From Nitrosarchaeum sp. (GTDB lineage: Archaea; Thermoproteota; Nitrososphaeria; Nitrososphaerales; Nitrosopumilaceae): 33,394 nucleotides of DNA. Numbering within the stretch: position 1 is the first letter of the stretch; every line of letters begins with the position of its first letter. Under the pieces are notes generated by a model, which was not told the DNA's origin, ran no database searches, and saw only the letters and a list, made by a program, of their open reading frames with translations. Below, piece by piece: positions 19,098 through 33,394 of the stretch. Position numbers and translations under genes: made by a program. The DNA is taken from the NCBI GenBank assembly GCA_020431985.1, contig JAGQHF010000052.1:1-33394 (forward strand). Direction: 5' to 3'.

Positions 19098-19134
19098 TTT
19101 AATTCACTGCAAATCCATTTCTAATATACTTCAA

Positions 19135-19147
19135 TTAACAATGTTAA
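19135..19147 (-). promoter_or_regulatory. Regulon palindrome upstream of DUF1059-EMC3-like operon
   Basis: TTAACAATGTTAA. On the minus strand a 6-bp spacer (19129-19134) separates it from TATATTAG (19121-19128), and TTG 19097 is 38 bp from its edge. The plus side shows no good TATA box. Confidence 0.75.
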
Positions 19148-19187
19148 CTAACTAATCTAATTTTGAAAGATATGCTGCAGAAGCCAG

Positions 19188-19280
19188 TTAGGAAATATGT
19201 TGGTGTCTTGGCAGAAAATGAAATCTAGGATAACCTGTAGGGGTTGCCCATATTTCCTTTTGGAGTAGCTGCTCCTGCAT
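19188..19280 (-). CDS. Possible 30-aa leaderless microprotein
   Basis: The ATG at 19280 is 37 bp from the palindrome at 19317-19329, with a TATA-like TCTAAATACC (19301-19310, minus) at the standard 6-bp spacing. The peptide MQEQLLQKEIWATPTG... ends HQHIS and has no recognisable domain. A different frame here reads CRYHNAGAATPKGN without a start codon. Support is promoter geometry only. Confidence 0.25.
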   Translation of the reverse strand: MQEQLLQKEIWATPTGYPRFHFLPRHQHIS

Positions 19281-19316
19281 TGTGATACCTACATGCGTTT
19301 GGTATTTAGAAGAAAC

Positions 19317-19329
19317 TTAACATTGTTAA
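19317..19329. promoter_or_regulatory. Regulon palindrome upstream of the zinc-ribbon operon
   Basis: TTAACATTGTTAA. The plus side has spacer TTCAAT, TATA TTTATTAAA (19336-19344) and GTG 19365 at 36 bp. The minus side has a 6-bp spacer, TCTAAATACC and ATG 19280 at 37 bp, so the site may act in both directions. Confidence 0.72.
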
Positions 19330-19364
19330 TTCAATTTTATTAAAAATTCTGTACGATATACTAC

Positions 19365-19472
19365 GTGAGCAAAAAGAAGGAAACCCAAGAAGATGAAAAT
19401 CTCGCAAACAGAAAAAATGAAGACTGGTGGAGACTAGAAAAATTTCAGATAGGCAGGAGAAAATTTGCTTAA
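19365..19472 (+). CDS. 35-aa basic microprotein before zinc ribbon
   Basis: From GTG 19365 to TAA: SKKKETQEDENLANRKNEDW and then a Trp/Lys/Arg-rich end, WRLEKFQIGRRKFA. It is highly charged and probably helical, without a membrane segment. The GTG is 36 bp from the palindrome, and the zinc-ribbon gene starts 2 bp after its stop, so the pair is one operon. No family recognised. Confidence 0.5.
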   Translation: MSKKKETQEDENLANRKNEDWWRLEKFQIGRRKFA

Positions 19473-19474
19473 TC

Positions 19475-19663
19475 ATGACCTATACTTGTAACGGAATATG
19501 TGAATTTCACAAAACCACAAAACTGTCTACGTCAAAAAAATACAGCAACGGACAAAAAAGATGCTCGTTATGTGCTGTTTTTATTGAGACTACCAGCAAT
19601 AGATGTCCCTGTTGCAGTGTAAAACTTAGAACCAGATCACGAAACAGGAAGTATGACGAATAA
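19475..19663 (+). CDS. Seven-cysteine zinc-ribbon microprotein, paralogue A
   Basis: 62 residues from ATG 19475. The pattern is CNGIC...YSNGQKRCSLCAVFIE...CPCCSVKLRTRSR, i.e. C-x3-C, C-x2-C and C-x-C-C, followed by a basic tail. Two paralogues lie at 21367-21579 and 21569-21802 on the other strand and share GQKRC-x2-C-x2-FI...CPCC...LR. The frame is open upstream to 19427, but that part overlaps the preceding microprotein and has no likeness to the paralogues. The zinc-binding role is inferred from cysteine spacing; nucleic-acid or protein partners are unknown. Confidence 0.78.
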   Translation: MTYTCNGICEFHKTTKLSTSKKYSNGQKRCSLCAVFIETTSNRCPCCSVKLRTRSRNRKYDE

Positions 19664-19671
19664 TTATTTCA

Positions 19672-19684
19672 TTAACATTGTTAA
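19672..19684 (+). promoter_or_regulatory. Regulon palindrome upstream of the 2-TM gene
   Basis: TTAACATTGTTAA with spacer GCACAT (19685-19690) and TATA-like GCTAAATACT (19691-19700). An ATG at 19722 is 38 bp from the edge. The site starts 8 bp after the zinc-ribbon stop. Confidence 0.7.
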
Positions 19685-19721
19685 GCACATGCTAAATACT
19701 CATTTTGAAAATAAGACATTG

Positions 19722-19817
19722 ATGAAAACGACGGCTTTTATCACAATAGCCTTATTAACTAATCTTGAATACATGGAAACGATTCACATGAATGCAGGGG
19801 AGATTGGCTGTGTCTGA
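19722..19817 (+). CDS. Possible 31-aa leaderless ORF overlapping the 2-TM gene
   Basis: The ATG at 19722 sits exactly where the operator-TATA geometry predicts a leaderless start. It encodes MKTTAFITIALLTNLEYMET and a short tail, and ends inside the next gene in another frame. It may be a leader peptide coupling translation to the 2-TM protein, or only the 5' end of that mRNA. No homologue recognised. Confidence 0.3.
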   Translation: MKTTAFITIALLTNLEYMETIHMNAGEIGCV

Positions 19818-20178
19818 TGCGGGAAGAGACATACTAAGCTCCATGGATATCTTTATTGAAAAAATCCAACACTTACGAGGACTCATGTTAGGGGTTTCAT
19901 TGTCTGCCTTGATCTTGGCCCCATTTGCCATTGGAATATCATCTTACCTGATAACACATCCCAAGTTCTTCCATTTGGTTGAAAATGAAAATGAGTTTGG
20001 GATGTTGCTCATAGTTTTGTTGGTTGTTGTATTGGTCACCTCTGGAATCTGGCTAGTTACTGGACTTCAACAATTCAGATCGCTTAATTCGTGGAATCGT
20101 CGATATTGCAACTACTTAAAGAAACGAGAGGAGCTAGACAAGGATATTTCCTCCAAGTTTCATCTAGACGAAGAATAG
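19792..20178 (+). CDS. 2-TM membrane protein, module copy 1
   Basis: 128 residues from ATG 19792; a TTG at 19804 is an alternative. There are two transmembrane segments (about residues 31-52 and 68-90), a short outside loop, and a charged cytoplasmic tail starting after GLQQFRSLNSWNRRYCNYLKKREELDKD. The layout and the tail (W-x-R/K-x-Y-x(4-6)-K-K-x-E-x-x-D-K) match the protein at 22941-23408. Each lies beside a gene for a similar winged-helix protein, so this is half of a duplicated pair. Here the two genes converge and overlap by 15 bp. Function unknown; a membrane sensor or anti-regulator is one guess. Confidence 0.72.
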   Translation: MQGRLAVSDAGRDILSSMDIFIEKIQHLRGLMLGVSLSALILAPFAIGISSYLITHPKFFHLVENENEFGMLLIVLLVVVLVTSGIWLVTGLQQFRSLNSWNRRYCNYLKKREELDKDISSKFHLDEE

Positions 20179-20496
20179 GCAACCAAGATTAAAAGCCGAA
20201 GGTGGCTTGCCCCCTCTTGGAAATAGTTTTTCGTAAGGCTCAAGGATTTCATGGCAGAAAGCCATCCCCTTGTTCGTGACCTTGAAAATGGTTACGGTTC
20301 TCTTGCCGTCTGCAATTTCTATCCTTTTTATCATGTCATTTTCTTCCAGATTATCTATGATCTGTTTGTGTTTTGATATGTTTAATCCACAAAAGCTAAA
20401 CAAGGCAGTTTGATTCAGTTGGCCATACTCTGAAAGAGTGAGTATGACGTCCTTTATGATGTATATTCTGTCTCTGTATTTTTTTGAATCTGCCAA
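20164..20496 (-). CDS. Winged-helix regulator, module copy 1
   Basis: 110 residues starting at TTG 20496. The sequence KKYRDRIYIIKDVILTLSEYGQLNQTALFSFCGLNISKHKQIIDNLEENDMIKR...VTNKGMAF is a small archaeal winged helix (HTH_45-like) with the recognition helix around GLNISKHKQIIDNL. The paralogue at 23457-23753 shares YRDRIYI.KD..L.L.EYG..NQ and the YE.LFPR end. A TATA-like GATTAAAAC (about 20517-20525) is 25 bp upstream, so the mRNA is leaderless. The C-terminal 15 residues are encoded over the end of the convergent 2-TM gene. It is a candidate reader of the local palindromes. Confidence 0.8.
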   Translation of the reverse strand: MADSKKYRDRIYIIKDVILTLSEYGQLNQTALFSFCGLNISKHKQIIDNLEENDMIKRIEIADGKRTVTIFKVTNKGMAFCHEILEPYEKLFPRGGKPPSAFNLGCLFFV

Positions 20497-20549
20497 TGAT
20501 TATACTTGAAATTGTCATGTTTTAATCATTCTGTAATGTTTGTGAATAA

Positions 20550-20562
20550 TTAACAATGTTAA
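20550..20562 (+). promoter_or_regulatory. Regulon palindrome upstream of C2H2/double-RAM operon
   Basis: TTAACAATGTTAA, spacer GCAACT (20563-20568), TATA GCTTATAATC (20569-20578), ATG 20598 at 36 bp. On the other side the winged-helix gene starts 54 bp away, with its own TATA at a different spacing. Confidence 0.75.
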
Positions 20563-20597
20563 GCAACTGCTTATAATCATAAATCTCTTGTCCATGC

Positions 20598-20768
20598 ATG
20601 GAATCCAGATTATCACTCAAGAAAAAGCTACTGAAAAACATTTTCAAAAAAGATGAACTTTCAAATAAATGCAAAATTTGTGATATGGAATTTGATAGTC
20701 CCGACAGGACAAAAAGACACATGATAAAAGCTCACTCAAAGCCAAAGCGTGAAAGACAGGAATACTAA
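20598..20768 (+). CDS. C2H2 zinc-finger microprotein
   Basis: 56 residues from ATG 20598. A lysine-rich helix (MESRLSLKKKLLKNIFKKDE) precedes a C2H2 finger C25-x2-C28-x12-H41-x4-H46 (CKICDMEFDSPDRTKRH...H) and a basic tail KPKRERQEY. The finger spacing equals that of the microprotein at 15855, though the flanks differ. The start is 36 bp from the operator palindrome. The double-RAM gene starts 2 bp after the stop, so they form one operon. The basic character suggests nucleic-acid binding. Confidence 0.78.
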   Translation: MESRLSLKKKLLKNIFKKDELSNKCKICDMEFDSPDRTKRHMIKAHSKPKRERQEY

Positions 20769-20770
20769 AA

Positions 20771-21322
20771 ATGGTAAAGGCCTATGTCATGATGTGCTGT
20801 GATGCGGGCTCCGAAATCGATGTAATATCTTCATTAAAGAAAATCAAGGGTGTAAAGGAAGTACATGGAACATTGGGTCTTTACGATCTTATTGCCCAGA
20901 TAGAATCTGATACAGAGGAGAAAATAAAGGAGGTTGTTACAAACGCTATTAGAAAAATGAAAAATATGCACTCTACTGTAACTTTGACAAGATCCGAATC
21001 CGGTGAACTGTTTGACACATCTAACAAACTGGTAGGTGCAATGCTTGGTCAAAATCTAGCTCGGGCATATGTGGTCCTCTATTGTGATAAAGGAGAAGAA
21101 TACCCTACATTGAAGAATCTCAGTCATATCCCCGAAGTCAAGGAAGCTGATGTGGTATTTGGTTACTATGACGTTATCTGCAAAGTAGAGGCTTCAGATG
21201 AAAAGACACTTGACAATATAATCACTAAAGCAATACGGAGGTTACCTAACATAAAGACAAGCATGACCCTCAATGTAATCAATGAGCAAGAGTCTCAATT
21301 ATTGGAAAACCCCTCTTCCTGA
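20771..21322 (+). CDS. Double RAM (Lrp/AsnC ligand-binding) domain protein
   Basis: 183 residues made of two tandem RAM domains: residues 1-80 (AYVMMCCDAGSE...VKEVHGTLGLYDLIAQIESDTEEK) and about 97-175 (AYVVLYCDKGEE...VKEADVVFGYYDVICKVEASDEKT). There is no DNA-binding helix-turn-helix. The first domain is close to the single-RAM protein at 10049. It is the second gene of the C2H2/RAM operon. RAM domains bind small effectors and oligomerise; together with the basic zinc-finger peptide it could form a split regulator. This pairing is inference. Confidence 0.87.
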   Translation: MVKAYVMMCCDAGSEIDVISSLKKIKGVKEVHGTLGLYDLIAQIESDTEEKIKEVVTNAIRKMKNMHSTVTLTRSESGELFDTSNKLVGAMLGQNLARAYVVLYCDKGEEYPTLKNLSHIPEVKEADVVFGYYDVICKVEASDEKTLDNIITKAIRRLPNIKTSMTLNVINEQESQLLENPSS

Positions 21323-21366
21323 ATTTATGACATAACTAAAAATGAACCAACTACATGTTAAAACAA

Positions 21367-21579
21367 TTAGATAGCCTGAGTCTGTATTTGTTTAAAATTT
21401 TGCTTGCTTTTAGATGATCTTGGTTTTGTCCTAAGCGAAACACTACAGCATGGACAAAACTTGCCATCCCACTCTATGAAAATCTCACAAACATTGCATC
21501 TTTTTTGCCCACTTGCGTATCTGTATCGGTTGTTTCCCCACTTGGCTTTGTATCTGGTGCAGAGACCTTTACAGACCAA
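21367..21579 (-). CDS. Seven-cysteine zinc-ribbon microprotein, paralogue C
   Basis: 70 residues from TTG 21579, overlapping the end of paralogue B by 11 bp, so translation is likely coupled. The pattern CKGLC...YASGQKRCNVCEIFIEWDGKFCPCCSVSLRTKPR matches the family, with a Lys/Gln-rich tail. Between B and C the block (Y)xSGQKRCNxCEIFIxWDG is nearly identical, so B and C are probably a tandem duplication. Confidence 0.78.
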   Translation of the reverse strand: MVCKGLCTRYKAKWGNNRYRYASGQKRCNVCEIFIEWDGKFCPCCSVSLRTKPRSSKSKQNFKQIQTQAI

Positions 21580-21802
21580 GAACCATGGCCTCCTCTTTTT
21601 TTCTCCTTAGGAATTTTTCTTTGTACTTTCCAGTACGTGGTGATTGGCGCAGTTTGTAATTACAGCATGGACACCACAAACCGTCCCAGCGAATAAATAT
21701 CTCACAGGAATTACATCTTTTTTGCCCACTAGTGTATCGACCTGAGTTTACCGGCTTTGTGGCTCGATATCTGTGGCATATTCCATTACATGTAACGCCC
21801 AT
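21569..21802 (-). CDS. Seven-cysteine zinc-ribbon microprotein, paralogue B
   Basis: 77 residues from ATG 21802 (a TTG at 21823 would add 7). It reads GVTCNGICHRYRATK, then YTSGQKRCNSCEIFIRWDG, WCPCCNYKLRQSPR and a basic tail. CNGIC matches paralogue A at 19475, and the middle matches paralogue C. A TATA-like AAGTAAAAA (minus, about 21835-21845) lies upstream. No regulon palindrome is seen before it, unlike paralogue A. The 290 bp up to the next gene hold no supported gene. Confidence 0.8.
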   Translation of the reverse strand: MGVTCNGICHRYRATKPVNSGRYTSGQKRCNSCEIFIRWDGLWCPCCNYKLRQSPRTGKYKEKFLRRKKEEAMVLGL

Positions 21803-22096
21803 TATCTCCAAGCCTCCATACAATTTCGGTTCATGTTTTTACTTGACAAATAGGAAAATACAGCAATCTCCTCCATGTTACATATGTCGTTATGATAAAA
21901 AAGTGTGAAGTACAGAAAAACTTGCATTCCCATAAAGGGTAACCATGGACTTTGGTTGGTAGTACTAATTTTTCATATGTTGTTATGGACTTTAAGGATC
22001 TGAATTTTCACATACGTGGTTTACACATAAGTTTTTTTGTATTATGGAAAGACATTTTCTTTGAAAGCTTATTTACTTTAATCTCCTTTTTTTCTC

Positions 22097-22519
22097 ATGA
22101 GTAAATCACAAAATGACTCAAATGATTTTTTTTCAGAATGCAAAAGCACTACTGAGAAATTTTTCAAAGAAATTGAAAAATCAAACCCGGTATATCACCA
22201 GATAGCAACTGACATCCAGGAAAACTATCTTGAGGCTTGGAAAAATGTCATAAACTCTTCAATATCACTTCAACAGGAATTTGCTGCCAAGACGGGCCAG
22301 AACATAAACATGTCTGAAGACATGAAAAAATCAATAGAGAACATCGTAGATAGCTCAATTACTGCATACCAAAACCAAAACAAGATTGCCGTAGACTCTG
22401 TACAAGCGTCAAAGAAGGTTTTTGATGTTATAGGCGAAAATACCAAAATCTTTGCTTCATTGAACAAAAATATGATGGATTTTGTAGATTCTGCAATGAA
22501 AAAATACTCACGAGACTAG
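22097..22519 (+). CDS. All-helical phasin-like protein
   Basis: 140 residues, no cysteine-rich or membrane segments apart from one Cys, almost entirely helical with heptad-like hydrophobic spacing. Segments such as EAWKNVINSSISLQQEFAAK, IVDSSITAYQNQNKIAVDSVQASKKVFDVI and SLNKNMMDFVDSAMKKY resemble phasins, which coat polyhydroxyalkanoate granules. Some Nitrososphaerota carry PHA synthase genes; none is in this window. The ATG at 22097 has a TATA-like TTATTTACTTTAA about 25-30 bp upstream. The call rests on composition and pattern, so a generic helical-bundle protein is the alternative. Confidence 0.6.
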   Translation: MSKSQNDSNDFFSECKSTTEKFFKEIEKSNPVYHQIATDIQENYLEAWKNVINSSISLQQEFAAKTGQNINMSEDMKKSIENIVDSSITAYQNQNKIAVDSVQASKKVFDVIGENTKIFASLNKNMMDFVDSAMKKYSRD

Positions 22520-22611
22520 ACAAGTCTTGTGGTCTTTTTTATCCCATTTTGTACATGTAGAATTATGTTTATATCCGAATATGCATTGTTAGAATAATTT
22601 TTTAGTCAATA

Positions 22612-22902
22612 ATGGCAACAAATACCATGTTTGATAACATGGTTACACGCAGGCGAAGCGATTTGTGGTATGTCTTGCCCATTTTTGGCGGATTTGTAGG
22701 AGGATTGATTGCGTGGTTTGCAATAAAATATGATGATCCTAAAAAAGGCCGCAATTGCCTTTTCCTTGGAATAATACTTACAGCAATTCCAGTTATCCTA
22801 ATGGTCCTACCCTTTTTGATACTGTTTACAAGTGATTTTTCAATGGAATTTGGAGAGCCCCATGAACCTCCAATGCAGTTCATTAAGGAATTTTATTTTT
22901 AA
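22612..22902 (+). CDS. Small 2-TM membrane protein
   Basis: 96 residues with two transmembrane segments (about 20-40 and 48-72), a short KYDDPKKGRNC cytoplasmic loop and an acidic outside tail (GEPHEPP). The RRRSDLWYVLPIFGGFVGGLIAWFAIKYDDPKKG block looks like small archaeal membrane proteins in which a D/P-K/R-rich loop links two helices. An internal ATG at 22627 is 35 bp from a degenerate half-site (CATTGTTA, 22584-22591) with the usual 6-bp spacing to a TTTTTAG TATA box. Either start is possible. Function unknown. Confidence 0.7.
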   Translation: MATNTMFDNMVTRRRSDLWYVLPIFGGFVGGLIAWFAIKYDDPKKGRNCLFLGIILTAIPVILMVLPFLILFTSDFSMEFGEPHEPPMQFIKEFYF

Positions 22903-22940
22903 TCACAAGCAACGAGATGTTTGTACAATCATTGTGCTTG

Positions 22941-23408
22941 TTATGTGCCAGAATCTTTCTCATCTTCGTTATCGTCTAGTTCTTTGTCAACTGCCTCTTG
23001 TTTTTTCTTGAATTTCTGGTATTTCTTGTCCCATTGAGAGAGTATCAACCACTGCCTGATTCCTATGCCCAGCCATCCAAGTGAAATTGCAAGTATTATG
23101 AACTGTGAGGGATGCAGCAGAAACTGTTTTTGTCCTTTGTCTAGTATTTTCTCCTTAATCTTTTGCATCTCATCGTGTGTTATCTCTCCTCGTTGAAGCT
23201 GTTCATTGAGGCGCATTTCTAATCTTTCCTGGAATGGATGTTCAAATGTGGCCGCCATCACTATCAATGCTACAGGCGGTATGATCAATACAGTCAGAAT
23301 CATTATCATAAACATTTTTTTTGTTCTGCTAAGCTGTACCATGATTCCATCTAGAATCTCAAAGATACTCTCATCTCTTTTATCAGGGTGTTTCTTGTCT
23401 TCAGACAA
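22941..23408 (-). CDS. 2-TM membrane protein, module copy 2
   Basis: 155 residues from TTG 23408, whose position is set by an in-frame stop three codons upstream and an operator 40 bp away. Two transmembrane segments (about residues 32-52 and 100-120) flank a charged outside helix (HPFQERLEMRLNEQLQRG...KIKEKILDKGQ). The tail, QWDKKYQKFKKKQEAVDKELDDN, matches module copy 1. The winged-helix partner gene lies directly upstream, and the operator overlaps its stop codon. So this gene has its own promoter inside the pair. Confidence 0.75.
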   Translation of the reverse strand: MSEDKKHPDKRDESIFEILDGIMVQLSRTKKMFMIMILTVLIIPPVALIVMAATFEHPFQERLEMRLNEQLQRGEITHDEMQKIKEKILDKGQKQFLLHPSQFIILAISLGWLGIGIRQWLILSQWDKKYQKFKKKQEAVDKELDDNEDEKDSGT

Positions 23409-23447
23409 TTCTATAGACTACTCCTGATTTTTGTTAAAAACAGTTTG

Positions 23448-23460
23448 GTAACATTGTTAC
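23448..23460 (-). promoter_or_regulatory. Regulon palindrome between the module-2 genes
   Basis: GTAACATTGTTAC inside a perfect 15-bp palindrome (23447-23461). On the minus strand the 6-bp spacer CAAACT leads to GTTTTTAAC (23433-23441) and TTG 23408 at 40 bp. It overlaps the last codons of the winged-helix gene. Confidence 0.77.
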
Positions 23461-23753
23461 CTGTCATCTTTGTTCTCTCTTGGAAACAAATCCTCATATG
23501 GTTGCAAGACCGCTCTGAATATCTCCCTGCCCTTGTCTGATATATCATACTTGAAGATAATCTTACTTCCCCACGATTCTTCGGTCCGGTTTAACAGCTG
23601 TTTTTGGACCATCTCATCCAGTATTTCTTTGTGCTTTACGTTGTTTAATCCACACATGCTCATGAGCTTGCTCTGATTCATCGGACCATATTCATAGAGT
23701 TTTAGCAAAATATCTTTTCTGATGTAGATTCTATCTCTGTATTCACGACCCAG
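23457..23753 (-). CDS. Winged-helix regulator, module copy 2
   Basis: A winged helix parallel to the one at 20164: REYRDRIYIRKDILLKLYEYGPMNQ, then SMCGLNNVKHKEILDEMVQKQLL and a C-terminal RAVLQPYEDLFPREN. The first ATG/GTG/TTG in frame is TTG 23708, which would cut off the conserved YRDRIYIRKD segment. Homology continues back to CTG 23753, directly after an in-frame ATA and a TAA stop. Either CTG initiates or the start codon was lost. Coordinates are given for the CTG start (98 aa); the shorter form is 23457-23708. Confidence 0.75.
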   Translation of the reverse strand: MGREYRDRIYIRKDILLKLYEYGPMNQSKLMSMCGLNNVKHKEILDEMVQKQLLNRTEESWGSKIIFKYDISDKGREIFRAVLQPYEDLFPRENKDDR

Positions 23754-23879
23754 TATTTATCACCAAATTTCTGATATCAAATCATATCTTCTACTTGTTA
23801 TGTTCTGTATTGCCTATCTTGCTTCTAAGTTTTATACAATACAGTGAATGGTTGTATCGGGATAGTTCCATCCCGTCTG

Positions 23880-24296
23880 TCACTGTAAAAATCTGGGTAC
23901 TTTTTTTAACACATGTGATATTGAAACTCTACCTGGGCCTATCACACATACCACCATACATCCTGAGAGCAACAGTATGTCAATTTCAGTGCCTCCCTGA
24001 CCCATGAAATTCTTGGCTCCTTTTACCAAGAATATTGCACCAAGCATTACAATTGATAGTATGCCTGCAGAAATCCTCGTCAATCCCCCAATCATAAGTA
24101 ACACTCCCGGAACAAACTCTGCTAGTGCAATTGGAAACTGCATCTCAGGTGGAATTCCTTGTCGCTCCAAAAATACCAAAAACCCTGGATCAAATTTGCC
24201 AAGGGAATGCGTAAAAAAAATCATTCCAATTGTTATACGTACTCCAAAGTGAGATACATCATGAAATATTGATTGTTTGATTATCGCATCTGCCAA
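23880..24296 (-). CDS. DoxX family membrane protein
   Basis: 138 residues, four transmembrane helices. The first helix holds RITIGMIFFTHSLGKF, and the rest has LAEFVPGVLLMIGGLTRISAGILSIVMLGAIF, both typical of the DoxX/DoxD-like family linked to quinone or thiosulfate redox chemistry and to membrane redox stress. The ATG at 24296 is 38 bp from an operator and about 25 bp from a TATA box (CTTAAAA), so the mRNA is leaderless. It is divergent from the secreted protein at 24396. Confidence 0.9.
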   Translation of the reverse strand: MADAIIKQSIFHDVSHFGVRITIGMIFFTHSLGKFDPGFLVFLERQGIPPEMQFPIALAEFVPGVLLMIGGLTRISAGILSIVMLGAIFLVKGAKNFMGQGGTEIDILLLSGCMVVCVIGPGRVSISHVLKKVPRFLQ

Positions 24297-24333
24297 TTGT
24301 AATTTTTCTATGTACTCGTCTTTTAAGCGTCAG

Positions 24334-24346
24334 GTAACATTGTTAC
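24334..24346 (-). promoter_or_regulatory. Regulon palindrome upstream of DoxX
   Basis: GTAACATTGTTAC. On the minus strand 6 bp (24328-24333) separate it from CTTAAAA (24321-24327), with ATG 24296 at 38 bp. Confidence 0.75.
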
Positions 24347-24347
24347 G

Positions 24348-24360
24348 TATCATTTGTTAA
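24348..24360 (+). promoter_or_regulatory. Half-site upstream of the secreted-protein gene
   Basis: Only the right arm TTGTTAA (24354-24360) fits the palindrome. The 6-bp spacer CAATGC, TATA TTTATATC (24367-24374) and ATG 24396 at 36 bp repeat the geometry of the full sites exactly. Confidence 0.5.
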
Positions 24361-24395
24361 CAATGCTTTATATCAAAATGCCTATTGATATTGCA

Positions 24396-25340
24396 ATGAA
24401 CAAGACAAAGTATGTGCTTCCTACATTCGCAGCAGTTTTTGCGTTGATGTTTGCAGCAGCAACACCTTACGTTATAGCAGAATCTGGTGACAAGGCTTGG
24501 AGCGGTGAAACACACACAAAGAACGTCAGGCAAGACATGGCTGAAAAATTAAACAGATACTGTGAAATGACTGCCGAAGACAAAACCGCACTGATTGAAA
24601 AACACAACAAACCTGAGGAAATGGTGACAAAGATGAACGAGTATTGTGTAATGGATGACTCAGAACGACAGGCATTTGTTGACCAACATCAGGATCAATA
24701 CAAAATGCATCATAATGACATGATGAAAAAACCCAAACATCACATGATGCTCAAAGTTGATGGATTCACAGGCAAGATAACGCTACCTGACATGTCTGAA
24801 ATTGAGGACAAAAAAGCAATTCATGAGGAAATCAAATCACAGGTTACTGTAAAACTAAGCGAAGCCGCAGCCGTAGCTGAGAATGCTGGACTGGATGTCA
24901 TAAAGGGTAACATGGGAATCGTTGTCAATGAGGATGGTGTAAAATCCCTTGCATGGATAATGACCTCCATGAACATGAATGGCGATACTGAAAAAATACC
25001 TGCAACAATCTTTGTGGTTGATGCAGCTGACGCAACCAATACGGCTCAGATAACAAAAGAGTTTGACCGTTTTATGGACAAAAAAACCCATGATGGAAAA
25101 TACGACAAAACTGCATTATCTGATCCTGAACAACTGCAAAATAAAATTTCAAAGATAGAAGAAAAACTCTCACAGGGAACAAGTAATACAGAAACTAGCG
25201 CTGCAAAGACAAAGTTCGTAGACATTCTAAAACAACTACAAATCGCAATTGAAGATGGTGATGACGAACAAGCAGATTCTCTTCGAGAACAATTAAAGGA
25301 TCTTCGAAACCAAATGGTTGATCTGAAGAAATTCAGATAA
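24396..25340 (+). CDS. Secreted acidic helical protein
   Basis: 314 residues from ATG 24396, which lies 26 bp after the TATA centre; earlier in-frame starts would precede that leaderless position. A signal peptide (KTKYVLPTFAAVFALMFAAATPYVIA) is followed by a His/Met/Asp/Glu-rich helical region (KMHHNDMMKKPKHHMM, a possible metal-binding cluster), a mixed domain around residues 110-210, and a C-terminal coiled coil (QLQNKISKIEEKLSQG to LREQLKDLRNQMVDLKK). The half-site promoter ties it to the regulon and to the divergent DoxX gene. A copper or other metal-binding envelope protein is suggested by the Met/His cluster, but no family is recognised. Confidence 0.75.
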   Translation: MNKTKYVLPTFAAVFALMFAAATPYVIAESGDKAWSGETHTKNVRQDMAEKLNRYCEMTAEDKTALIEKHNKPEEMVTKMNEYCVMDDSERQAFVDQHQDQYKMHHNDMMKKPKHHMMLKVDGFTGKITLPDMSEIEDKKAIHEEIKSQVTVKLSEAAAVAENAGLDVIKGNMGIVVNEDGVKSLAWIMTSMNMNGDTEKIPATIFVVDAADATNTAQITKEFDRFMDKKTHDGKYDKTALSDPEQLQNKISKIEEKLSQGTSNTETSAAKTKFVDILKQLQIAIEDGDDEQADSLREQLKDLRNQMVDLKKFR

Positions 25341-25507
25341 TCATTTTTTATTAATTTGTAAAACTGTTTAATCTTGACTCTAGGACTAATCTTAATCGTA
25401 TCTTGTACATAATTGGGTTCATGTGATGTTTTTAGATCAGGAGAGTCACTAGCAGCAGATTATGAAATGATTAACAGCCGTAATTTGAATCTTTTTCAAT
25501 TCCTTAA

Positions 25508-26146
25508 TTATTCTGTAGAATACATTGTACTTCCCGTGCTTGATGGAATCGATGGGAATTTATCTCCCATCTGTGTCTCTGCCACTGCTGCAGCCTCGCT
25601 TAAGATGACATCAGTCTCTTGTGATGAGAATCCCTCATTACCGAAGGAATAGTCATCTCCAAGTGAGTCAGGCATCATGTCTCCAAGCATATTGCCCATT
25701 AACTCTAGCTCTTGGCTTGCCTGAGGCATTATGCTATTCATTGCTGGAACAACTGTTTTCATTGTGTGTATTGCTGGCTGCATTGACACAATTGCATCTC
25801 CTAGAGTGCTTACTGTAGATAGTCTTAGTTGTGTTCTATCTACTGAAGTCCTCATGTTTCTTATGATCTTGTTTGTTTTTCTAATTTGTGCTAGTTCATT
25901 TGCCAAAATCTTACTTGTGCGAATATCTTTGTTTTTTTGAGCCTCTACAAGCCTCTGAAATAATTTATCATCTTTTTGGTTTAACTGATTAGAAGTATTG
26001 TCTAATTTTGATATTGGTTTGTTTAGCCCTCTTAATGCACGTTCCACACGTGGTTTTAGTGGTGCTTCTTTTTTGAATATGTTTGAAATCTTATCTCCAA
26101 GCCCATCTGATGTAGGTCTGTACCATGTATGTCCAAAATTGGTCAT
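25508..26146 (-). CDS. cdvB: CdvB-like ESCRT-III protein
   Basis: 212 residues from ATG 26146, about 25 bp after a TATA-like ATAATTTATTG; a TTG at 26164 overlaps that TATA and is rejected. The basic N-terminal helical hairpin (FKKEAPLKPRVERALRGLNKPISKLDNTSNQL) and the long second helix (LFQRLVEAQKNKDIRTSKILANELAQIRKTNKIIRNMRTSVDRTQLRL) are the ESCRT-III/CdvB core that polymerises on membranes in archaeal cell division. The C-terminal 60 residues are acidic with a MIM-like helix (LSEAAAVAE). Nitrososphaerota carry several CdvB paralogues; no cdvA or cdvC lies nearby, so this may be a stand-alone copy. Confidence 0.87.
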   Translation of the reverse strand: MTNFGHTWYRPTSDGLGDKISNIFKKEAPLKPRVERALRGLNKPISKLDNTSNQLNQKDDKLFQRLVEAQKNKDIRTSKILANELAQIRKTNKIIRNMRTSVDRTQLRLSTVSTLGDAIVSMQPAIHTMKTVVPAMNSIMPQASQELELMGNMLGDMMPDSLGDDYSFGNEGFSSQETDVILSEAAAVAETQMGDKFPSIPSSTGSTMYSTE

Positions 26147-26270
26147 TGTCACTAAAACAGACAATAAATTATTTGAAAGTACCTATGTTTTAGCGGTATG
26201 GTTTCTCATCAAATATTTTATAACTTCATAACACTAAACTAATTAAATTACGTAATAATATTACCCTAAT

Positions 26271-27140
26271 ATGATTTCAAATGAATTACTTTCTAATACA
26301 CACATTGGAAATTTAGAATCATACAAGCTGTATACTAGACCTACTGCTCACAAACTTTATGGTTCTACTTACTTGCGTACTATGTCCTCTACTTCGTCCA
26401 CACATAAAAAAAATGTACAGCAAATTTTAGAAATTTTAGCGTTAAATGGCTCATTAACTACTTGGGAGATGGCTCAAATCAAATTTGCAGGAGATCTTTC
26501 TCACACTAAAACTAAAGAAAAGGAGTATCGACGGTTACTAATTGGAAGAACTGATAGAGGAAAATCTTCAGATGGCATAATACATATTGGTTTGGTGTTG
26601 AAGGATGGAAAAAGCTACAAAAGAAATCCTGGCGACAAATACAGATTGACTCTACATGGGATATTATACTGTCTGGATGTTTTGAATTTAACAAAAAATC
26701 AGATTGACACAATGGCCTCAAAGTATGCCCATATCTTACCCAAAGTTTTTGGTAAATGGAAATATCTGAAATCTGTCATAGGAGATGATGTTTACAAGCT
26801 TCGGATTTTGTCCAAAGGATTATTATTAAATAATTTGGAAATTGCATTGAGAATAAATCCTCCAATGTATGAATTGATGTCGTATATAATTATAAAATAT
26901 AAAAAAAATTTTGAGTATGCCACAGAAGAAGATTTATCAAATCAAATTTCATTGTGGTTTTACACAAATTTACTTTATAACAAGAATGATAGTTTCAAAC
27001 ATAATATATCTGATACAAAACTCCAAAAAATTTTAGATGCAGACACTGAAATTCGGAAATGGTATCTTAATTTCTGTAAAGAATCAAAGACATACTACAA
27101 AAAAAGTTTAGATAATGTATTACTGATGGATTTGCATTAA
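26271..27140 (+). CDS. Hypothetical protein with possible N-terminal winged helix
   Basis: 289 residues, ATG 26271 with a TATA-like AATTAAATTA about 25-30 bp upstream. Residues 45-120 (VQQILEILALNGSLTTWEMAQIKF...EYRRLLIG, then KYRLTLHGILYCLDVL) look like a winged-helix DNA-binding unit ending in a lTxxGi.. strand-helix. The rest is helical, rich in Lys, Asn and Tyr, without cysteine motifs. It overlaps the convergent response regulator by 4 bp. Base composition is more AT-rich than in neighbouring genes, a possible sign of transfer. Confidence 0.65.
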   Translation: MISNELLSNTHIGNLESYKLYTRPTAHKLYGSTYLRTMSSTSSTHKKNVQQILEILALNGSLTTWEMAQIKFAGDLSHTKTKEKEYRRLLIGRTDRGKSSDGIIHIGLVLKDGKSYKRNPGDKYRLTLHGILYCLDVLNLTKNQIDTMASKYAHILPKVFGKWKYLKSVIGDDVYKLRILSKGLLLNNLEIALRINPPMYELMSYIIIKYKKNFEYATEEDLSNQISLWFYTNLLYNKNDSFKHNISDTKLQKILDADTEIRKWYLNFCKESKTYYKKSLDNVLLMDLH

Positions 27141-27502
27141 GTGTATTTTTGAATTATTTTTATGATTTGGTTAAACTCTATTGGTTTGTGCAATAACTCT
27201 AATAATCCCTCATCTCTTGTCTTTTCTGTTTTTTTACTATCGATAGAAAACGCCGTAATGAATATTATTTTTGCATTTGAATCATACTTTTTAATATCAA
27301 AAAATGCCTCATAACCATTCAAAACTGGCATTCGTATGTCTAAAAATACAATATCTGGATTATGTCTTTTATACATGTCTACTGCCTCTGCTCCGTTATG
27401 AGCAGTTATCACCTCGTATCCTTCATCTAATAACATGTACTGAGTAGATTCTAAAACATCGAGATCATCATCCGCAATCAAAATTGTTTTATTTTTTTCC
27501 AT
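27137..27502 (-). CDS. Response regulator, single receiver domain
   Basis: 121 residues from ATG 27502 (a TTG two codons upstream is less likely). A lone CheY-type receiver: acidic pocket DDD (residues 11-13), phospho-acceptor D55 in PDIVFLDIRMPVLNG, Thr in FITAFS and Lys in LLHKPI. There is no output domain, so signal output goes by protein contact. It follows the sensor kinase gene by 45 bp on the same strand, a cognate pair. Confidence 0.93.
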   Translation of the reverse strand: MEKNKTILIADDDLDVLESTQYMLLDEGYEVITAHNGAEAVDMYKRHNPDIVFLDIRMPVLNGYEAFFDIKKYDSNAKIIFITAFSIDSKKTEKTRDEGLLELLHKPIEFNQIIKIIQKYT

Positions 27503-27547
27503 TATCAAATTTTTTCAATCCGTGGTTTATCTATTGCTATTGGTTCA

Positions 27548-29323
27548 TCAATGCTTCATTGGAATCGAAATCGTAAAAACAACTGGGTTGGGTTTAGCTG
27601 TTATAACTCCACCGTGTTGTTCTATAATATTTTTGCAACTTACTAGTCCTAATCCCGTACCTTTTTCTTTAGTAGAGAATAGAGGCTCAAATATTCTTGG
27701 CAATATGTTTTCATCAATTTCAGGACCAGTATTTTCAAACTTGATAATTGCTGTATTCTGAGTTTGTGAAATTTCTATTTTTATTTGGCCCTTGTCATTT
27801 CCAATTGCCTGGATCGCATTCAACAAAATATTGCTGAAAACCGATTCAATTTTATCCGGATCACATTCTATTATTATGTCGTTTTTAGGAATCGTGATTT
27901 CAATTGTTTCAGGCATTTTTAGCACCTCTATTGCAGACTGGAGTATTTTTAGAAGTGACGCTTGGATAAACTCAACATGAGTTGTATTGATGTAATTAAG
28001 CACATCATCAATTTGATGTGATATTCTCACTACTCCTCTATCAATTCTTCTAATCTCTCTGGCAATGATCTCTTTGTTGGCATGATGTTTCTTAATGATT
28101 TCTGTAGAATTCTTAATTACATGTAATGGATTTTTAATATCATGTGCAATTTGAGCAGCTAGCATTCCAATAGTGTTAATTCTTTCATTTCTTAGTTGAT
28201 CTTTAGAATCTTCTAATTCTTCTTCTACTTTCAATTTCCTTTTCAACGATTCTATCATGTGATTAAATGAATTTGAAAGCTGGTTTAATTCATCATTTGT
28301 TTTCACGTTTGACTTGACATTAAGATTCCCATTTGCTATCTGATTTGAAATCTTAACAATCTCACTTATTGGTTTTGCAATAGTCTTTGAAAAGAAAATA
28401 GATATCAATACAACAGACATGCTCATTATAATATACACAAAAACTATTATGAACAAGCTAAATTGTAGTGATGCAAAAATTTCAGATTTGTTAATATTTG
28501 CTGCAATACCCAAATTAGCCTTTTCAATATAACCCGTAACTGCGAAAACAGGTTCGTTCTCTAAGTTTGTGAGATTCAAAAAACGATCTTCTTTTTTCGC
28601 CATAGATTGTATTATGGGAACGTTGGCTCTTTCCATAGGTACTGTTCTTTTTAAAATCACTTCATCTTCCATAATTATGGGATAGATTAGTAAAACTTCG
28701 TTTTCAGAAATCTGTTTAGCAATTGAAAATTCTCCTGTTTTTCCCAATGTGTTCACATTGATGTCCTCGAATATGTTTTGATATTCAAATTCCACAAAAA
28801 CCACTCCAATTGGGTTTGTACCTGTTACCAATGTTTTAGAAAATAGTATTACTGGTTTGCCTTCATTTGTCAAAATAAAATCTATTGTTGGTACTTCAGA
28901 ATTTTTTATCTCATTGAATCGTTCATATGTTTGGACTTTATTTATCTCTGTCTTCTTTGTTGATGTCAATATTTGGCCATCCAAGTCTGTAATGTATATT
29001 TTAGAAGTATCAATGAGAACACTCCTTATTTCATTTAGGGCCTCATCAATATTTTCTTGACTTTCTGTTGTCTGAAAATTCTTGTCATCTTCTACGGATT
29101 GTAATAGTTTAATTTCGTTGGATATTAAGCCGAGTTCCGTAAAATGAGAATTTATTTTACCTTCAATGTTTTTCTTTTCATTTTCAACAAAGAATTTTAA
29201 ATTGTTTATTGTATGTTCCACAAGTATTCTTTCATAATCGTAGTAACTAATCACCGCAACAATGGAAAACGGAATAAGTGATACACTTAACAACAACAAA
29301 AATATTTTTAATCTAAATTTCAA
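27548..29323 (-). CDS. Membrane sensor histidine kinase
   Basis: 591 residues from TTG 29323. TM1 is at about residues 7-26. A long external sensor region (about 28-280, Cache-like: YITDLDGQILTS...IGVVFVEFEYQNIF) is followed by TM2 (about 285-310) and a HAMP linker. HisKA carries H394 (AAQIAHDIKNPLHVI). The ATPase domain has the N box ILLNAIQAIGN, a degenerate G1 (ENTGPEID), an F box (FEPLFSTK) and G2 (GTGLGLVSCKNII). It phosphorylates the adjacent receiver protein. Neighbour on the other side is the divergent large Fn3 protein. Confidence 0.93.
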   Translation of the reverse strand: MKFRLKIFLLLLSVSLIPFSIVAVISYYDYERILVEHTINNLKFFVENEKKNIEGKINSHFTELGLISNEIKLLQSVEDDKNFQTTESQENIDEALNEIRSVLIDTSKIYITDLDGQILTSTKKTEINKVQTYERFNEIKNSEVPTIDFILTNEGKPVILFSKTLVTGTNPIGVVFVEFEYQNIFEDINVNTLGKTGEFSIAKQISENEVLLIYPIIMEDEVILKRTVPMERANVPIIQSMAKKEDRFLNLTNLENEPVFAVTGYIEKANLGIAANINKSEIFASLQFSLFIIVFVYIIMSMSVVLISIFFSKTIAKPISEIVKISNQIANGNLNVKSNVKTNDELNQLSNSFNHMIESLKRKLKVEEELEDSKDQLRNERINTIGMLAAQIAHDIKNPLHVIKNSTEIIKKHHANKEIIAREIRRIDRGVVRISHQIDDVLNYINTTHVEFIQASLLKILQSAIEVLKMPETIEITIPKNDIIIECDPDKIESVFSNILLNAIQAIGNDKGQIKIEISQTQNTAIIKFENTGPEIDENILPRIFEPLFSTKEKGTGLGLVSCKNIIEQHGGVITAKPNPVVFTISIPMKH

Positions 29324-29510
29324 TTCTACATAAAAAATTATTAAATTGTTTTTAAATATGTCCTAGTTTTTATGCCAAAAATACTCATATAACATTTAGT
29401 GTCTATTTGTATTAATACACTGTATGTGTATTCTATTTAATTTATGTAAAACCATACCGCAAATGATTCTCTATTTTTTTATCATAACTAAGAAGAATAT
29501 ATTTTGAAAA

Positions 29511-31991
29511 TTGACACAAAAAAATCTGTCCCATCTATTTGTGATTAGCATGACATTCTTACTTGGAATCTCCCTTGCCATTGTTCCCGAACTTGCATTT
29601 GCAGAAATTGAAACTGACAAATCTGTTTATTTGAGGGGTGAACCTGTCAGAGTTTCTGGCACTGTAGATTTTCAAAATGACGATAGAGTAAATATCATAC
29701 AAATTGAAATCACTAATTCTGATACTGATGATACTATAGTAAACATGTACACACCCCTAGATGACGATAACTCCTTTTCTAGTTCATACGATTCAGCTGC
29801 ATGGCCGGCAGGTGATTATGAAGTGAAAATTATCTATAATTATCTTGACGAGATAGCAGAGTTTACAGTATCTGATTCTTCATCCTCATCAAATAATAAT
29901 AAATCAGACAATGATCACAGTAACAATGATAATCTAAACAATACACAAGAATCCACACCCTCTTCATATGATTTGCCCCTCAGTCCTACAAATCTTACAG
30001 CTGATGTGATTTCTTCAACACAAATTGACTTATCCTGGTCTGCACCATCTGGTGATAACTCTTTGATAACTGGATATAAAATCGAACACAGGACAAATAC
30101 TAATCCCAATTATTTTGTGACTGTAGAAAATACCCATAGTACAGAAACTACATATTCTCATACTGATCTGACTCCAGATACTGTTTATGCGTATCGCATC
30201 TCTGCAATTAACTCTGTAGGAACGAGTGAACCATCTAGTAGTACTACCGTCAAAACTTCCAGTAACAATATGAGTGGCATAAATGAATCAATTACTGATC
30301 TAGAATACACGGATGTGCCTTCTAATGTTATGGCTGAAGCAATATCGTCGACAGATGTTGAGCTAGAATGGAATCCGCCAACACAAACATACGGGCAAAC
30401 CATTCAAGACTATACAATAAAACAAGAAATCGCATCTAACGTCTATGATGAAATAGCCAGTACTTCTGATACAAAACATATCATATCTGGTTTAGATCCC
30501 GGCCAAACTTACACTTTTGTAGTAGTAGCTAATTATGCATTAGGATCCAGCAATATATCTGACGAGATCACAGTCACATTAGCATCGACATTAGATAAAG
30601 ACAGTGTCAATAATGATTTAGAAAATAACAATGATAATTCTTCCGTCATACCAGATGGCATACCCGACAGCCCTGCTGACTTGAAAGTCCAACCTATTTC
30701 TTCAACACAAATTGACTTATCCTGGTCTGCTCCAAATGATGACAATATAAATAATGATTCTATAACTGGTTACAAGATTGAGGTAAGAACAATCAGTAAC
30801 GCAACATATTCTACAGTGATAGAAGACACAGAAAGCACAGGTACTACATATTCTCACACTGGTTTAATTCCAGAAACTACTTACATTTATCGAGTCTATG
30901 CAATTAATTCTATAGGAACAAGTGAGCCCTCAGATGAAAATCTTGTAAATACTCTAGCCTCAGATTCTGAATTTGATAAAAAAGAATATGCCGAAATTCA
31001 AGACGACTCTAATTTTGATGAATATGACTTAGAATCCTCATCTAATGTGTTTAACCCACCAACTGATCTAACTGCCACTGCTGTATCTCAAAGTAGAATA
31101 GATTTGTCCTGGTCTGCACCAATTGACACCAGCTCGTCTGCATTACTTGGATATAAAATAGAGTCAAAGACAAGTAACGAATCAGATTATTCTGTATTGG
31201 TGAGAAATACTGGAACTATGACCACCACATATTCTCACACGGGTTTGACAGCCGGGCTTACTTATGAGTATCGTGTCTCTGCAATAACCTCTTCTGGTCA
31301 AAGCTTTCCTTCTGATCCAGCTGAGGCAACAATAATCTCAAATAACAATCGGATTGAATCAGAGCTATCCTCTTCACTCCAACCATTGACAATAACTCTT
31401 AGCCTTAGTAAAAACGTGTATGATTTTGATGATCCCATTGAAATATCAGGAATCATTACTGGCTCAACACAAAACATGCCTATAGGCATGAGGATAATCT
31501 CTTCAAATGATACAATTGTATATGTAAGAAGTATTTCTGCTGACAACAGTACTTTTGAAATTATGGTCCCTCCGACACAAAGACAGTCGTCAGCTTGGCA
31601 AAATAATGACGAATTCACAATTGAAGTAACACATAACGGACGAATTCAAGCCACATCTATGTTTGAAATATATGACGAAAACACAAGCAATACGTCTGAA
31701 AAATCTGCCTCTGAAGTTGGTTCTGAAAATGAATCAAATGTACCACGATCTCAATTCTCAAATAATACATCTGCTAACATTCCATCAAACAACACCTTGA
31801 ACAGCGTTAATGCACTAAATAGTCAAAACCTAGCATTACAATCTGCCAATCAACAGTTACAAGATGAAAACAATCAACTAAAAATTCAGATTGAAGAACT
31901 AAACAAAAGAATTGAACAGCTAGATGCCATTGTTAAGGAACAAATTCGAGTTATGATGGAAACATTGAACATACTAAAATCTAATGGTTAG
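29511..31991 (+). CDS. Large secreted fibronectin-III protein
   Basis: 826 residues from TTG 29511; an ATG at 29550 would also keep a signal peptide. After the signal (ending AFA, about residue 33) come an Ig/MG2-like domain (ETDKSVYLRGEPVRVSG, to about 125), a Ser/Asn/Asp linker, four Fn3 domains (about 155-252, 267-363, 383-485, 513-610; repeated IDLSWSAP...GYKIE...YSHTGL...YRVSAINS), a second MG2-like domain (LSKNVYDFDDPIEISG, about 622-722), and a C-terminal coiled coil (about 768-826). Fn3 copies 1 and 3 share a 35-bp identical DNA stretch. Likely a cell-surface or adhesive protein; no catalytic part. Confidence 0.88.
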   Translation: MTQKNLSHLFVISMTFLLGISLAIVPELAFAEIETDKSVYLRGEPVRVSGTVDFQNDDRVNIIQIEITNSDTDDTIVNMYTPLDDDNSFSSSYDSAAWPAGDYEVKIIYNYLDEIAEFTVSDSSSSSNNNKSDNDHSNNDNLNNTQESTPSSYDLPLSPTNLTADVISSTQIDLSWSAPSGDNSLITGYKIEHRTNTNPNYFVTVENTHSTETTYSHTDLTPDTVYAYRISAINSVGTSEPSSSTTVKTSSNNMSGINESITDLEYTDVPSNVMAEAISSTDVELEWNPPTQTYGQTIQDYTIKQEIASNVYDEIASTSDTKHIISGLDPGQTYTFVVVANYALGSSNISDEITVTLASTLDKDSVNNDLENNNDNSSVIPDGIPDSPADLKVQPISSTQIDLSWSAPNDDNINNDSITGYKIEVRTISNATYSTVIEDTESTGTTYSHTGLIPETTYIYRVYAINSIGTSEPSDENLVNTLASDSEFDKKEYAEIQDDSNFDEYDLESSSNVFNPPTDLTATAVSQSRIDLSWSAPIDTSSSALLGYKIESKTSNESDYSVLVRNTGTMTTTYSHTGLTAGLTYEYRVSAITSSGQSFPSDPAEATIISNNNRIESELSSSLQPLTITLSLSKNVYDFDDPIEISGIITGSTQNMPIGMRIISSNDTIVYVRSISADNSTFEIMVPPTQRQSSAWQNNDEFTIEVTHNGRIQATSMFEIYDENTSNTSEKSASEVGSENESNVPRSQFSNNTSANIPSNNTLNSVNALNSQNLALQSANQQLQDENNQLKIQIEELNKRIEQLDAIVKEQIRVMMETLNILKSNG
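30009..30043 (+). repeat. 35-bp identical repeat, copy 1, in Fn3 domain 1
   Basis: This stretch, encoding ISSTQIDLSWSA, is identical to 30696-30730 in Fn3 domain 3. Identity across synonymous sites points to recent duplication or gene conversion. Confidence 0.85.
30696..30730 (+). repeat. 35-bp identical repeat, copy 2, in Fn3 domain 3
   Basis: Identical to 30009-30043. Domains 2 and 4 carry only diverged forms of it. Confidence 0.85.
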
Positions 31992-32553
31992 TATTCTATC
32001 CTGTTTATCATCTAATTCAAAATATAATGTACACATATCCATTATTTGATAAAACCACTCCGTAAACATTAAACAACCTTCTAATAACATTGACATCTAT
32101 GTATCATTATTCCCTACAAGTCAAATTGGATAGGCCTAGAGTCTAAAATTTGTACGTCCTAAATAGGTATTCTAGGCCTATCCGACATGTGTAAATCAAT
32201 TTCAATATGTGATAATCAATTTTAGATACAATAAATTAACTAATTTTGAAAATAAATCCAATTTATTTTTAATCTAATATTTTCTAAACTAAAATCACGG
32301 TTAACAAGAGATCAAGAATTCATATTCTGTATATCATATCATTTATTTTTTCTACTAATTTTAGATTTTATTTCTTTTATATCTAAATCTGATTTATCTC
32401 AGTAATCAAAATGTTTCAATATTTGTTGCCAAGGGAATCATTAATTGGCATTTATTTTATGTGTGTCTTCATGTATTTTATCCGCAGTCTATAATATTGT
32501 CTATGTAAAAGCCTTGTTGAAAATATTACTTGGAGCTTATTATTATAATGATG
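31992..32553. other. AT-rich intergenic region
   Basis: No gene supported. The only strong structures are the 13-bp inverted repeat at 32128-32183 and a 6-bp arm pair TGCCAA (32427-32432) with TTGGCA (32445-32450). Confidence 0.5.
32128..32183. repeat. Perfect 13-bp inverted repeat around a 30-nt spacer
   Basis: GGATAGGCCTAGA (32128-32140) and TCTAGGCCTATCC (32171-32183) are exact complements. Each arm also contains the palindrome TAGGCCTA. It could be a hairpin RNA, a double operator or a small mobile-element remnant; flanking target duplications were not seen. Confidence 0.75.
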
Positions 32554-32591
32554 TATTAGCAAACGCTAATAGTTTTTTGTTATTAGTAATA
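32554..32591. promoter_or_regulatory. Two palindromes before the Lys/Ala-rich microprotein
   Basis: TATTAGC (32554-32560) and GCTAATA (32565-32571) are perfect 7-bp arms. TATTAGTAATA (32581-32591) is a second palindrome ending 2 bp before ATG 32594. A TATA-like TTATTATAATG lies just upstream, so they may be operators at the transcription start. A T6 run follows the first palindrome, so a terminator is the alternative. Confidence 0.45.
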
Positions 32592-32593
32592 AT

Positions 32594-32734
32594 ATGGGCC
32601 TAAAAGAAGACGCAAAAAAAGCTGTTGAAAAAGCTTCAGAATATGCCACCAAGGGTGCTAAGGATGCAAAGAAAGGTGCAGAGGAAGCAAAAGATGCAGT
32701 AGAAAAAAGACATAAAAAAGGAAAAAACTCCTAA
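32594..32734 (+). CDS. Lys/Ala/Glu-rich 46-aa microprotein
   Basis: ATG 32594 to TAA encodes MGLKEDAKKAVEKASEYATK, then GAKDAKKGAEEAKDAVEKRH and a basic end. The whole chain forms one amphipathic helix with 4-residue A/K/E periodicity, like LEA or apolipoprotein-type 11-mer repeats. Such peptides bind membranes, protect proteins in stress, or coat DNA. It has no cysteine. No close family is named; the low-complexity design and own promoter-like region support it. Confidence 0.65.
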   Translation: MGLKEDAKKAVEKASEYATKGAKDAKKGAEEAKDAVEKRHKKGKNS

Positions 32735-32817
32735 TTATTTTATTTCTAATCCTTGATTCAAATGTTCAGATTCATTCGGGGTTTTACTTATTGTTTATTT
32801 AATAGATGATGAGTCAT

Positions 32818-32937
32818 TCAAATTAGAAATTTCTGCAACTCCTTTTCAAACCATTTCTCTACTTGTGCTGACATTCCTATCTTGTTTTTCATTGTCTCAA
32901 TCTCATTTTTTTTTGATTGAGATATGTGCAGAGTCAT
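32818..32937 (-). CDS. Possible 39-aa helical microprotein
   Basis: ATG 32937 to TGA: MTLHISQSKKNEIETMKNK, then IGMSAQVEKWFEKELQKFLI. Charged/hydrophobic alternation suggests an amphipathic helix. A TATA-like AAAAATAAC (minus, about 32960-32970) lies about 28 bp upstream. No homologue recognised; the frame is short. Confidence 0.35.
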   Translation of the reverse strand: MTLHISQSKKNEIETMKNKIGMSAQVEKWFEKELQKFLI

Positions 32938-33271
32938 ATCCAAGAAAACTGTCATCTTCCAGTTATTTTTCTAGTATCTTTAAGCAATATATTAAAACCT
33001 CGGAACAACAATTCAAAGAGTAACTGCAATAACATGATCAATGTCAACATACCGTATTATTGCAGAAATAATTTTCCATTGATGCTGATTAAAAATATAG
33101 ACAACAGAGCATTTTTGTCACTAGAGGTCTAAGGTAACCATGATGAGATTCATTCCATAAGATGGTTTATGGAATACTAGAGAGAAAACAAACAGTATTT
33201 GAAAGCTTAATTCAATCTAATTCTGTCATCAAGTTTGCATATTGTACATAATTAATTTTTATTAAAAAATG
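32938..33271. other. Intergenic region, no gene supported
   Basis: A 71-codon plus-strand frame (32917-33132) is Asn/Ser/Ile-rich without domain likeness and overlaps the microprotein above, so it is not called. Near 33264-33269 a T-run on the minus strand fits the end of the tRNA transcript. Confidence 0.5.
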
Positions 33272-33394
33272 TGGGGCCGACCGGAATCGAACCGGCGACC
33301 TACGGGTCACTACAGCTCCAAACTTACATCATCCATTAGTCAGTTCAGCTTAGTTTAACCTCTGGAGCCCTTAGCGGTGATCTATTCGTAGACA
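33272..33394 (-). tRNA. 3' part of an intron-containing pre-tRNA, probably tRNA-Trp(CCA)
   Basis: On the minus strand the sequence ends GCCGG-TTCGATT-CCGGT (T arm) and CGGCCCC-A (3' acceptor strand and discriminator; CCA not encoded). Anticodon CCA is at 33363-33365 (CTCCAG), and an intron of 54 nt (33308-33361) fits position 37/38: helix CTCC with GTAG (one mismatch), 3-nt bulges AG^A and TG^A, then ACCC of exon 2. The anticodon stem AAGGG/CCCGT has one A-G mismatch. The 5' acceptor and a D arm are not found in the 22 nt left, so the gene runs beyond the window and may hold a second intron. A T-run follows the 3' end. Confidence 0.75.

Follow-up and report, generated by a model that had tools for sequence, protein, structure and literature searches.

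The stretch of DNA analyzed here (the window, 33,394 nucleotides) is contig 154 (C154) of an archaeal genome assembly with 264 contigs and 1.82 Mb, from an ammonia oxidizer of marine type. On the minus strand its last 123 bases belong to a tRNA-Trp(CCA) gene, of which they hold the 3' part. An earlier note on this DNA had recognized a T arm and 3' acceptor, a CCA anticodon, an intron at 37/38 and the absence of the 5' half, and all of these were confirmed: the T arm and acceptor occupy 33272–33307, the intron 33308–33361 and the anticodon 33363–33365, and neither a D arm nor a 5' acceptor occurs before the window ends. Sequence past 33394 was obtained from another contig of the same genome, C165 of G000, whose positions 1–127 are identical to window positions 33268–33394 in an exact contig-end overlap. 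Beyond the overlap C165 reads CTGTCGCCCTACCAGGCTAGGCTACGACCCC; the next 31 bases carry the missing 5' half, which on the gene strand comprises GGGGTCG (5' acceptor), TA, GCCT-AGCCTGGTA-GGGC (D arm), G26 and AC (27–28, the start of the anticodon stem), and they also give the first two bases of a further intron. The second intron suspected by the note was thus found in the joined C154–C165 sequence, where 26 nt interrupt the gene at 28/29. The D arm lies away from the anticodon stem because this intron intervenes, and the remainder is beyond the contig end. The complete gene has 154 nt, with the following features, all on the minus strand of the window or its continuation:

G000:C165:130–158, outside the window, whose edge is at 33394: exon 1, 29 nt, positions 1–28 plus one extra D-loop base
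33371–33394 plus its first 2 nt at C165:128–129: intron 1, 26 nt, at 28/29, placed by alignment and fold
33362–33370: exon 2 (29–37), GGGCTCCAG, with anticodon CCA at 33363–33365 and covariation at 29–41
33308–33361: intron 2, 54 nt, at the canonical 37/38 site, kept in all 84 two-intron genes fetched from Nitrosopumilaceae
33340–33343: box D' (CTGA) in intron 2, present in the same 84 of 84 sequences
33327–33332: core of box C' (ATGATG), a few nt past D', invariant in the alignment
33314–33322: antisense element TTTGGAGCT, which forms 9 uninterrupted pairs with GGCTCCAGA over the anticodon loop and 5' splice site
33310–33313: GTAG, the intron strand of the central helix facing CTCC (32–35), mismatched at C34
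33272–33307: exon 3, 36 nt, with A38, the 3' anticodon stem CCCGT, variable loop, T arm, CGGCCCC and A73

Removal of the 26 nt at 28/29 and the 54 nt at 37/38 leaves a 74-nt product that ARAGORN calls tRNA-Trp(cca), and this predicted spliced form is a perfect tRNA-Trp. In the window itself the gene was missed both by ARAGORN and by Rfam at the gathering score. ARAGORN called the unspliced joined gene tRNA-Gln, and RF00005 run over the whole genome returned only a 24.4-bit fragment, below the 29-bit cut-off. Standard tRNA scans can overlook this gene. The whole-genome RF00005 search found no other tRNA-Trp, and the gene is the sole tRNA-Trp(CCA) gene found for the source genome. Energy folding failed to produce the cloverleaf from the mature sequence on its own and was therefore given little weight. 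A tmRNA-like Rfam match (16.6 bits against a cut-off of 47) was rejected, as it arises from the shared T arm.

It should be noted that the contig stops within the gene at a 127-base overlap and that the downstream flank is unlike that of relatives, which might point to a pseudogene or a contig-end assembly artefact. However, the same gene is contiguous in relatives at 95–97% identity, including the single-contig genomes G003 and G030, the C165 flank is syntenic with theirs, the spliced tRNA is perfect and no second tRNA-Trp was found, and either of the two readings is very improbable. In contiguous form, the two-intron gene is 97–98% identical in genomes of the same genus and 78–97% identical across the family; it recurs in most of the 151 family genomes, far beyond chance. 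The C154–C165 join is very likely correct on this comparative sequence evidence, and the locus almost certainly holds an intact two-intron tRNA-Trp(CCA) gene. The overlap begins 4 bases beyond the tRNA 3' end, a position that suggests an assembly-graph branch with two downstream flanks in the sample.

The note had also proposed an unusual gene layout. A permuted or split gene, with its halves reordered or at separate loci, would account for a window that has the 3' part only, and such tRNAs occur in archaea (PMC3218864), but the 5' half continues directly on C165 in normal order, as in relatives, so that the joined sequence refutes this layout and leaves it a negligible probability.

The position of intron 1 at 28/29 follows from the 3' anticodon stem: CCCGT needs ACGGG, of which AC precedes the intron and GGG follows it. 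In one clade (6 sequences) the 3' stem is CCTGT and an A directly follows the intron, so that pair 29–41 covaries from GC to AU. Both the alignment and the minimum-energy fold of the precursor contain a 4-bp central helix GGCG/CGCU (exon/intron), an ACA bulge and a GTG/CAC inner helix. These splice sites fit the relaxed rather than the strict bulge-helix-bulge form, as the predicted 3' bulge has only 2 nt and the outer 5' side carries an extra 5-nt bulge. Cleavage would occur at AC^A and AA^G.

The note had described the 37/38 site as obeying bulge-helix-bulge rules. The AG^A and TG^A bulges and the GGG/CCC helix do fit, but the 4-bp central helix, formed by CUCC (32–35) and intron bases -6 to -3 (here GUAG), is mismatched at C34. 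These four intron bases are GNAG in 84 of 84 Nitrosopumilaceae genes, and N is never G, leaving C34 unpaired; families f4, f7, f13, f22 and f24 have GGAG there, a full match. A separate GGAG further upstream is part of the antisense element. The source genome encodes two endonuclease paralogues (PF01974) together with fibrillarin (PF01269), and the paralogue pair agrees with the two-subunit splicing endonuclease reported for Thaumarchaeota (PMC4090602).

C/D guide RNAs have CTGA as their D box and TGATG as their C box, and by their order in intron 2 the two motifs correspond to D' and C'. The spacing from CTGA to ATGATG is 3–9 nt in the 84 Nitrosopumilaceae genes, mostly 7, and it is mostly 7 across all families. 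The 5' part of the intron is variable and the sequence flanking CTGA drifts within the family while the boxes stay, and the 3' core, ATGATGT..AGTTTGGAGCTG.AGTGACC, is nearly invariant in the family alignment. An outer box C (TGATG upstream of D') was found in none of the 84 sequences, and no canonical one occurred anywhere among the genes examined. Likewise, an outer box D (CTGA downstream of C') was present in 0 of 84 within the family and in 1 of 28 outside it.

With a covariance model built from the gene, related genes were detected in numerous further families of the order and the class. In 11 of these families, the stretch before CTGA pairs with the intron end and tRNA positions 38–44, with 7–12 contiguous pairs, and C39 faces the fifth base upstream of CTGA. 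This N+5 position is the one by which C/D guides select the methylated base. Other registers mostly gave 0–3 pairs, with exceptions in f18 (7 pairs at +4) and f22 (5 pairs), and in every sequence having the C39 guide at most 3 of 2000 shuffles were as good. The guide also tracks its target: ACCC is matched by GGGT and ACCT by AGGT, a change that the two intron bases preceding A38 follow. In all 84 Nitrosopumilaceae sequences only 0–2 pairs form at the N+5 register. Thus, the C39 guide was lost in this family; outside it, f22, one f21 genome and some f14 members have lost it as well. A pattern for a stand-alone C/D RNA as its replacement was found in 1 of 14 genomes and was not conserved.

A second antisense element, located 3' of ATGATG, pairs with the anticodon loop and the first intron base. 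It forms 8–9 pairs in Nitrosopumilaceae and mostly 8–13 elsewhere (6 in f17). Its intron bases covary with the target in some families (AT with AT in L159, ACC with GGT in L175), whereas in Nitrosopumilaceae the fixed anticodon leaves the element no room to covary. Where box D would be expected for C34, next to this 8–9 bp antisense, the family has GTAG or GCAG, and in two cases GCGA, rather than CTGA. With neither an outer box C nor a CTGA at that position, methylation of C34 is not supported by the usual rule. The note's suggestion of a box C/D guide was right, if incomplete for Nitrosopumilaceae: the D'/C' boxes and one antisense over the anticodon loop have been kept, but the position-39 guide and the canonical outer C/D pair are absent.

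Our preferred reading, to which we assign a probability of about 0.75, is a two-intron gene whose 37/38 intron derives from a guide and retains a C/D device. Transcription would give a 154-nt precursor interrupted by introns at 28/29 and 37/38, both bulge-helix-bulge-like folds would be cut by the two-subunit endonuclease, and the exons would then be joined. Intron 2 would derive from an intronic box C/D guide which, across the class, sets C39 for ribose methylation through its D' guide and pairs around C34 through its second antisense; in Nitrosopumilaceae the C39 guide has decayed. The kept boxes and the anticodon-loop antisense would most likely still serve to build a C/D protein complex on the precursor, which would mark C34 or time splicing. 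The odds that such a complex still forms in Nitrosopumilaceae are about even. More tentatively, the class-wide intron may be a minimal one-kink-turn methylation guide, closed by the tRNA body rather than by an outer C/D motif, which in Nitrosopumilaceae has shed the C39 guide and persists as a device with one guide, directed at C34 or at the timing of splicing.

The main competing explanation is that the core of intron 2 is kept for splicing only, ATGATG and CTGA being leftovers and the antisense a mere precursor hairpin. The absence of the C39 guide throughout Nitrosopumilaceae and of the outer C/D boxes agrees with it, as does the viability of Haloferax without its tRNA-Trp intron (Joardar 2008, as cited in PMC4090602). 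However, although the surroundings of CTGA drift, both boxes are present in 84 of 84 genes at mostly fixed spacing, and they lie outside the bulge-helix-bulge strands. We consider this explanation possible, at below even odds.

By its sequence, intron 2 is a reduced form related to the methylation-guide intron that euryarchaeal tRNA-Trp is known to have, and it very probably descends from a guide intron. In Haloferax, the C'/D' part reportedly guides U39 and the C/D part C34, the same order as in the layout described here. Box C/D guides for C34 and U39 in tRNA-Trp introns (PMC2584109, PMC7994747, PMC11408192) are known in Euryarchaeota and have been reported for at least 29 archaea (PMC2584109, PMC11408192). 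The euryarchaeal guide (Haloferax volcanii; Pyrococcus sR50) resides in the same tRNA at the same 37/38 site, and relatives in the class share with it a position-39 guide upstream of CTGA and a C34 antisense, both crossing splice sites. It was reported to need to act before splicing, to which the present intron may be likened, and the Haloferax C34 guide also pairs with part of the intron (PMC2584109). In contrast, the intron has 54 nt here and 103 nt in Haloferax, where an outer C/D pair was reported that is absent here; Nitrosopumilaceae also differ from the euryarchaeal system in lacking the position-39 guide and in having a second intron at 28/29.

The second intron itself does not differ in kind from the noncanonical and multiple tRNA introns of Thaumarchaeota and Crenarchaeota, which also lie outside 37/38, occur several per gene and go with a two-subunit endonuclease (PMC8450103, PMC3218864, PMC4090602). 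In Thaumarchaeota, 107 noncanonical introns are catalogued in tRNAscan-SE 2.0 (PMC8450103). The portions consulted of these three papers contained no description of the present tRNA-Trp gene. Our literature search, which extended neither to subscription papers nor to tRNA databases, found nothing on Nitrosopumilus tRNA-Trp introns, and the gene is perhaps already annotated. The type of gene is known, then, and the reduced guide and its pattern of loss appear to be new. An intron with a box D and a degenerate box C also occurs in tRNA-Met of Nanoarchaeum equitans (PMC3491384); that is a different tRNA, and its intron RNA was shown to be stable and abundant. In other families, tRNA-Trp genes apparently have additional introns: L159 has them between the acceptor stem and the D arm, L158 and L165 within the D loop, and L169 within the T loop.

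The Haloferax intron guides two methylations and yet can be deleted, which raises the question why archaea keep tRNA-Trp introns. The sequences described here offer a natural series: class relatives with the C39 N+5 guide, a large family of abundant ammonia oxidizers that has kept the boxes but not this guide, and species without introns at the same locus. Both introns are conserved through Nitrosopumilaceae, as in Ca. Nitrosopumilus salaria, Nitrosarchaeum sp. BD3 and Cenarchaeum sp. An intronless tRNA-Trp was found in 21 of 151 family genomes, in the two genera Nitrosopumilus and Nitrosopelagicus only (for example Nitrosopumilus sp. Nsub, Ca. N. limneticus and several Ca. Nitrosopelagicus; by label, L055–L062, G011, G019, G067 and others). 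The two-intron gene was absent from every intronless genome that was also searched with the gene model. The intronless form shows that the introns are dispensable in these close relatives, which counts against the reading that we prefer. A strict pattern search of intronless species detected no stand-alone C34 guide. The intronless form occupies the same locus, with two flanks that align, the one as far as exon 1 and the other starting with the T arm, and the mature sequences of the two forms differ at 13 of 74 positions.

A FastTree phylogeny of the flanks alone required three state changes, with intronless genes in two clades (Nitrosopelagicus and Nitrosopumilus) and one return; the two-intron genome G138 is nested inside an intronless clade. 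Between the two clades, intronless genes reach 97% identity, and others in Nitrosopumilus are 89–96% identical. Because of this cross-clade identity, spread of an intronless allele by recombination seems likelier than two independent losses. Two sequences from genomes filed as bacteria, L234 (Chitinophagaceae) and L243 (SAR324), carry an archaeal two-intron tRNA-Trp with archaeal-like flanks and are probably from contaminated genome bins.

In the relatives checked, an aconitase gene lies directly downstream of tRNA-Trp. Here the matching sequence is at 12838–13925, about 19 kb from the tRNA, so the downstream gene order has changed; the intervening 19 kb or so of other genes (13930–33267) may represent a rearrangement or an island. 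We looked for signs of a mobile element at the tRNA 3' end, and found no tRNA-end repeat near aconitase or at the borders and no recognizable integrase among the proteins searched. Elsewhere in the window, the regions 3405–4517 (minus) and 4569–7585 (plus) hold a class I W/Y-type aminoacyl-tRNA synthetase, likely the tryptophanyl enzyme and thus on the same contig as tRNA-Trp, together with two adjoining open reading frames that by appearance resemble phenylalanyl-tRNA synthetase subunits. A protein of the Snf7/ESCRT-III type, probably a cell division protein like CdvB, is encoded at 25508–26164 (minus), and an 826-residue protein with four fibronectin type III domains at 29511–31991 (plus) adjoins a histidine kinase and a likely response regulator.
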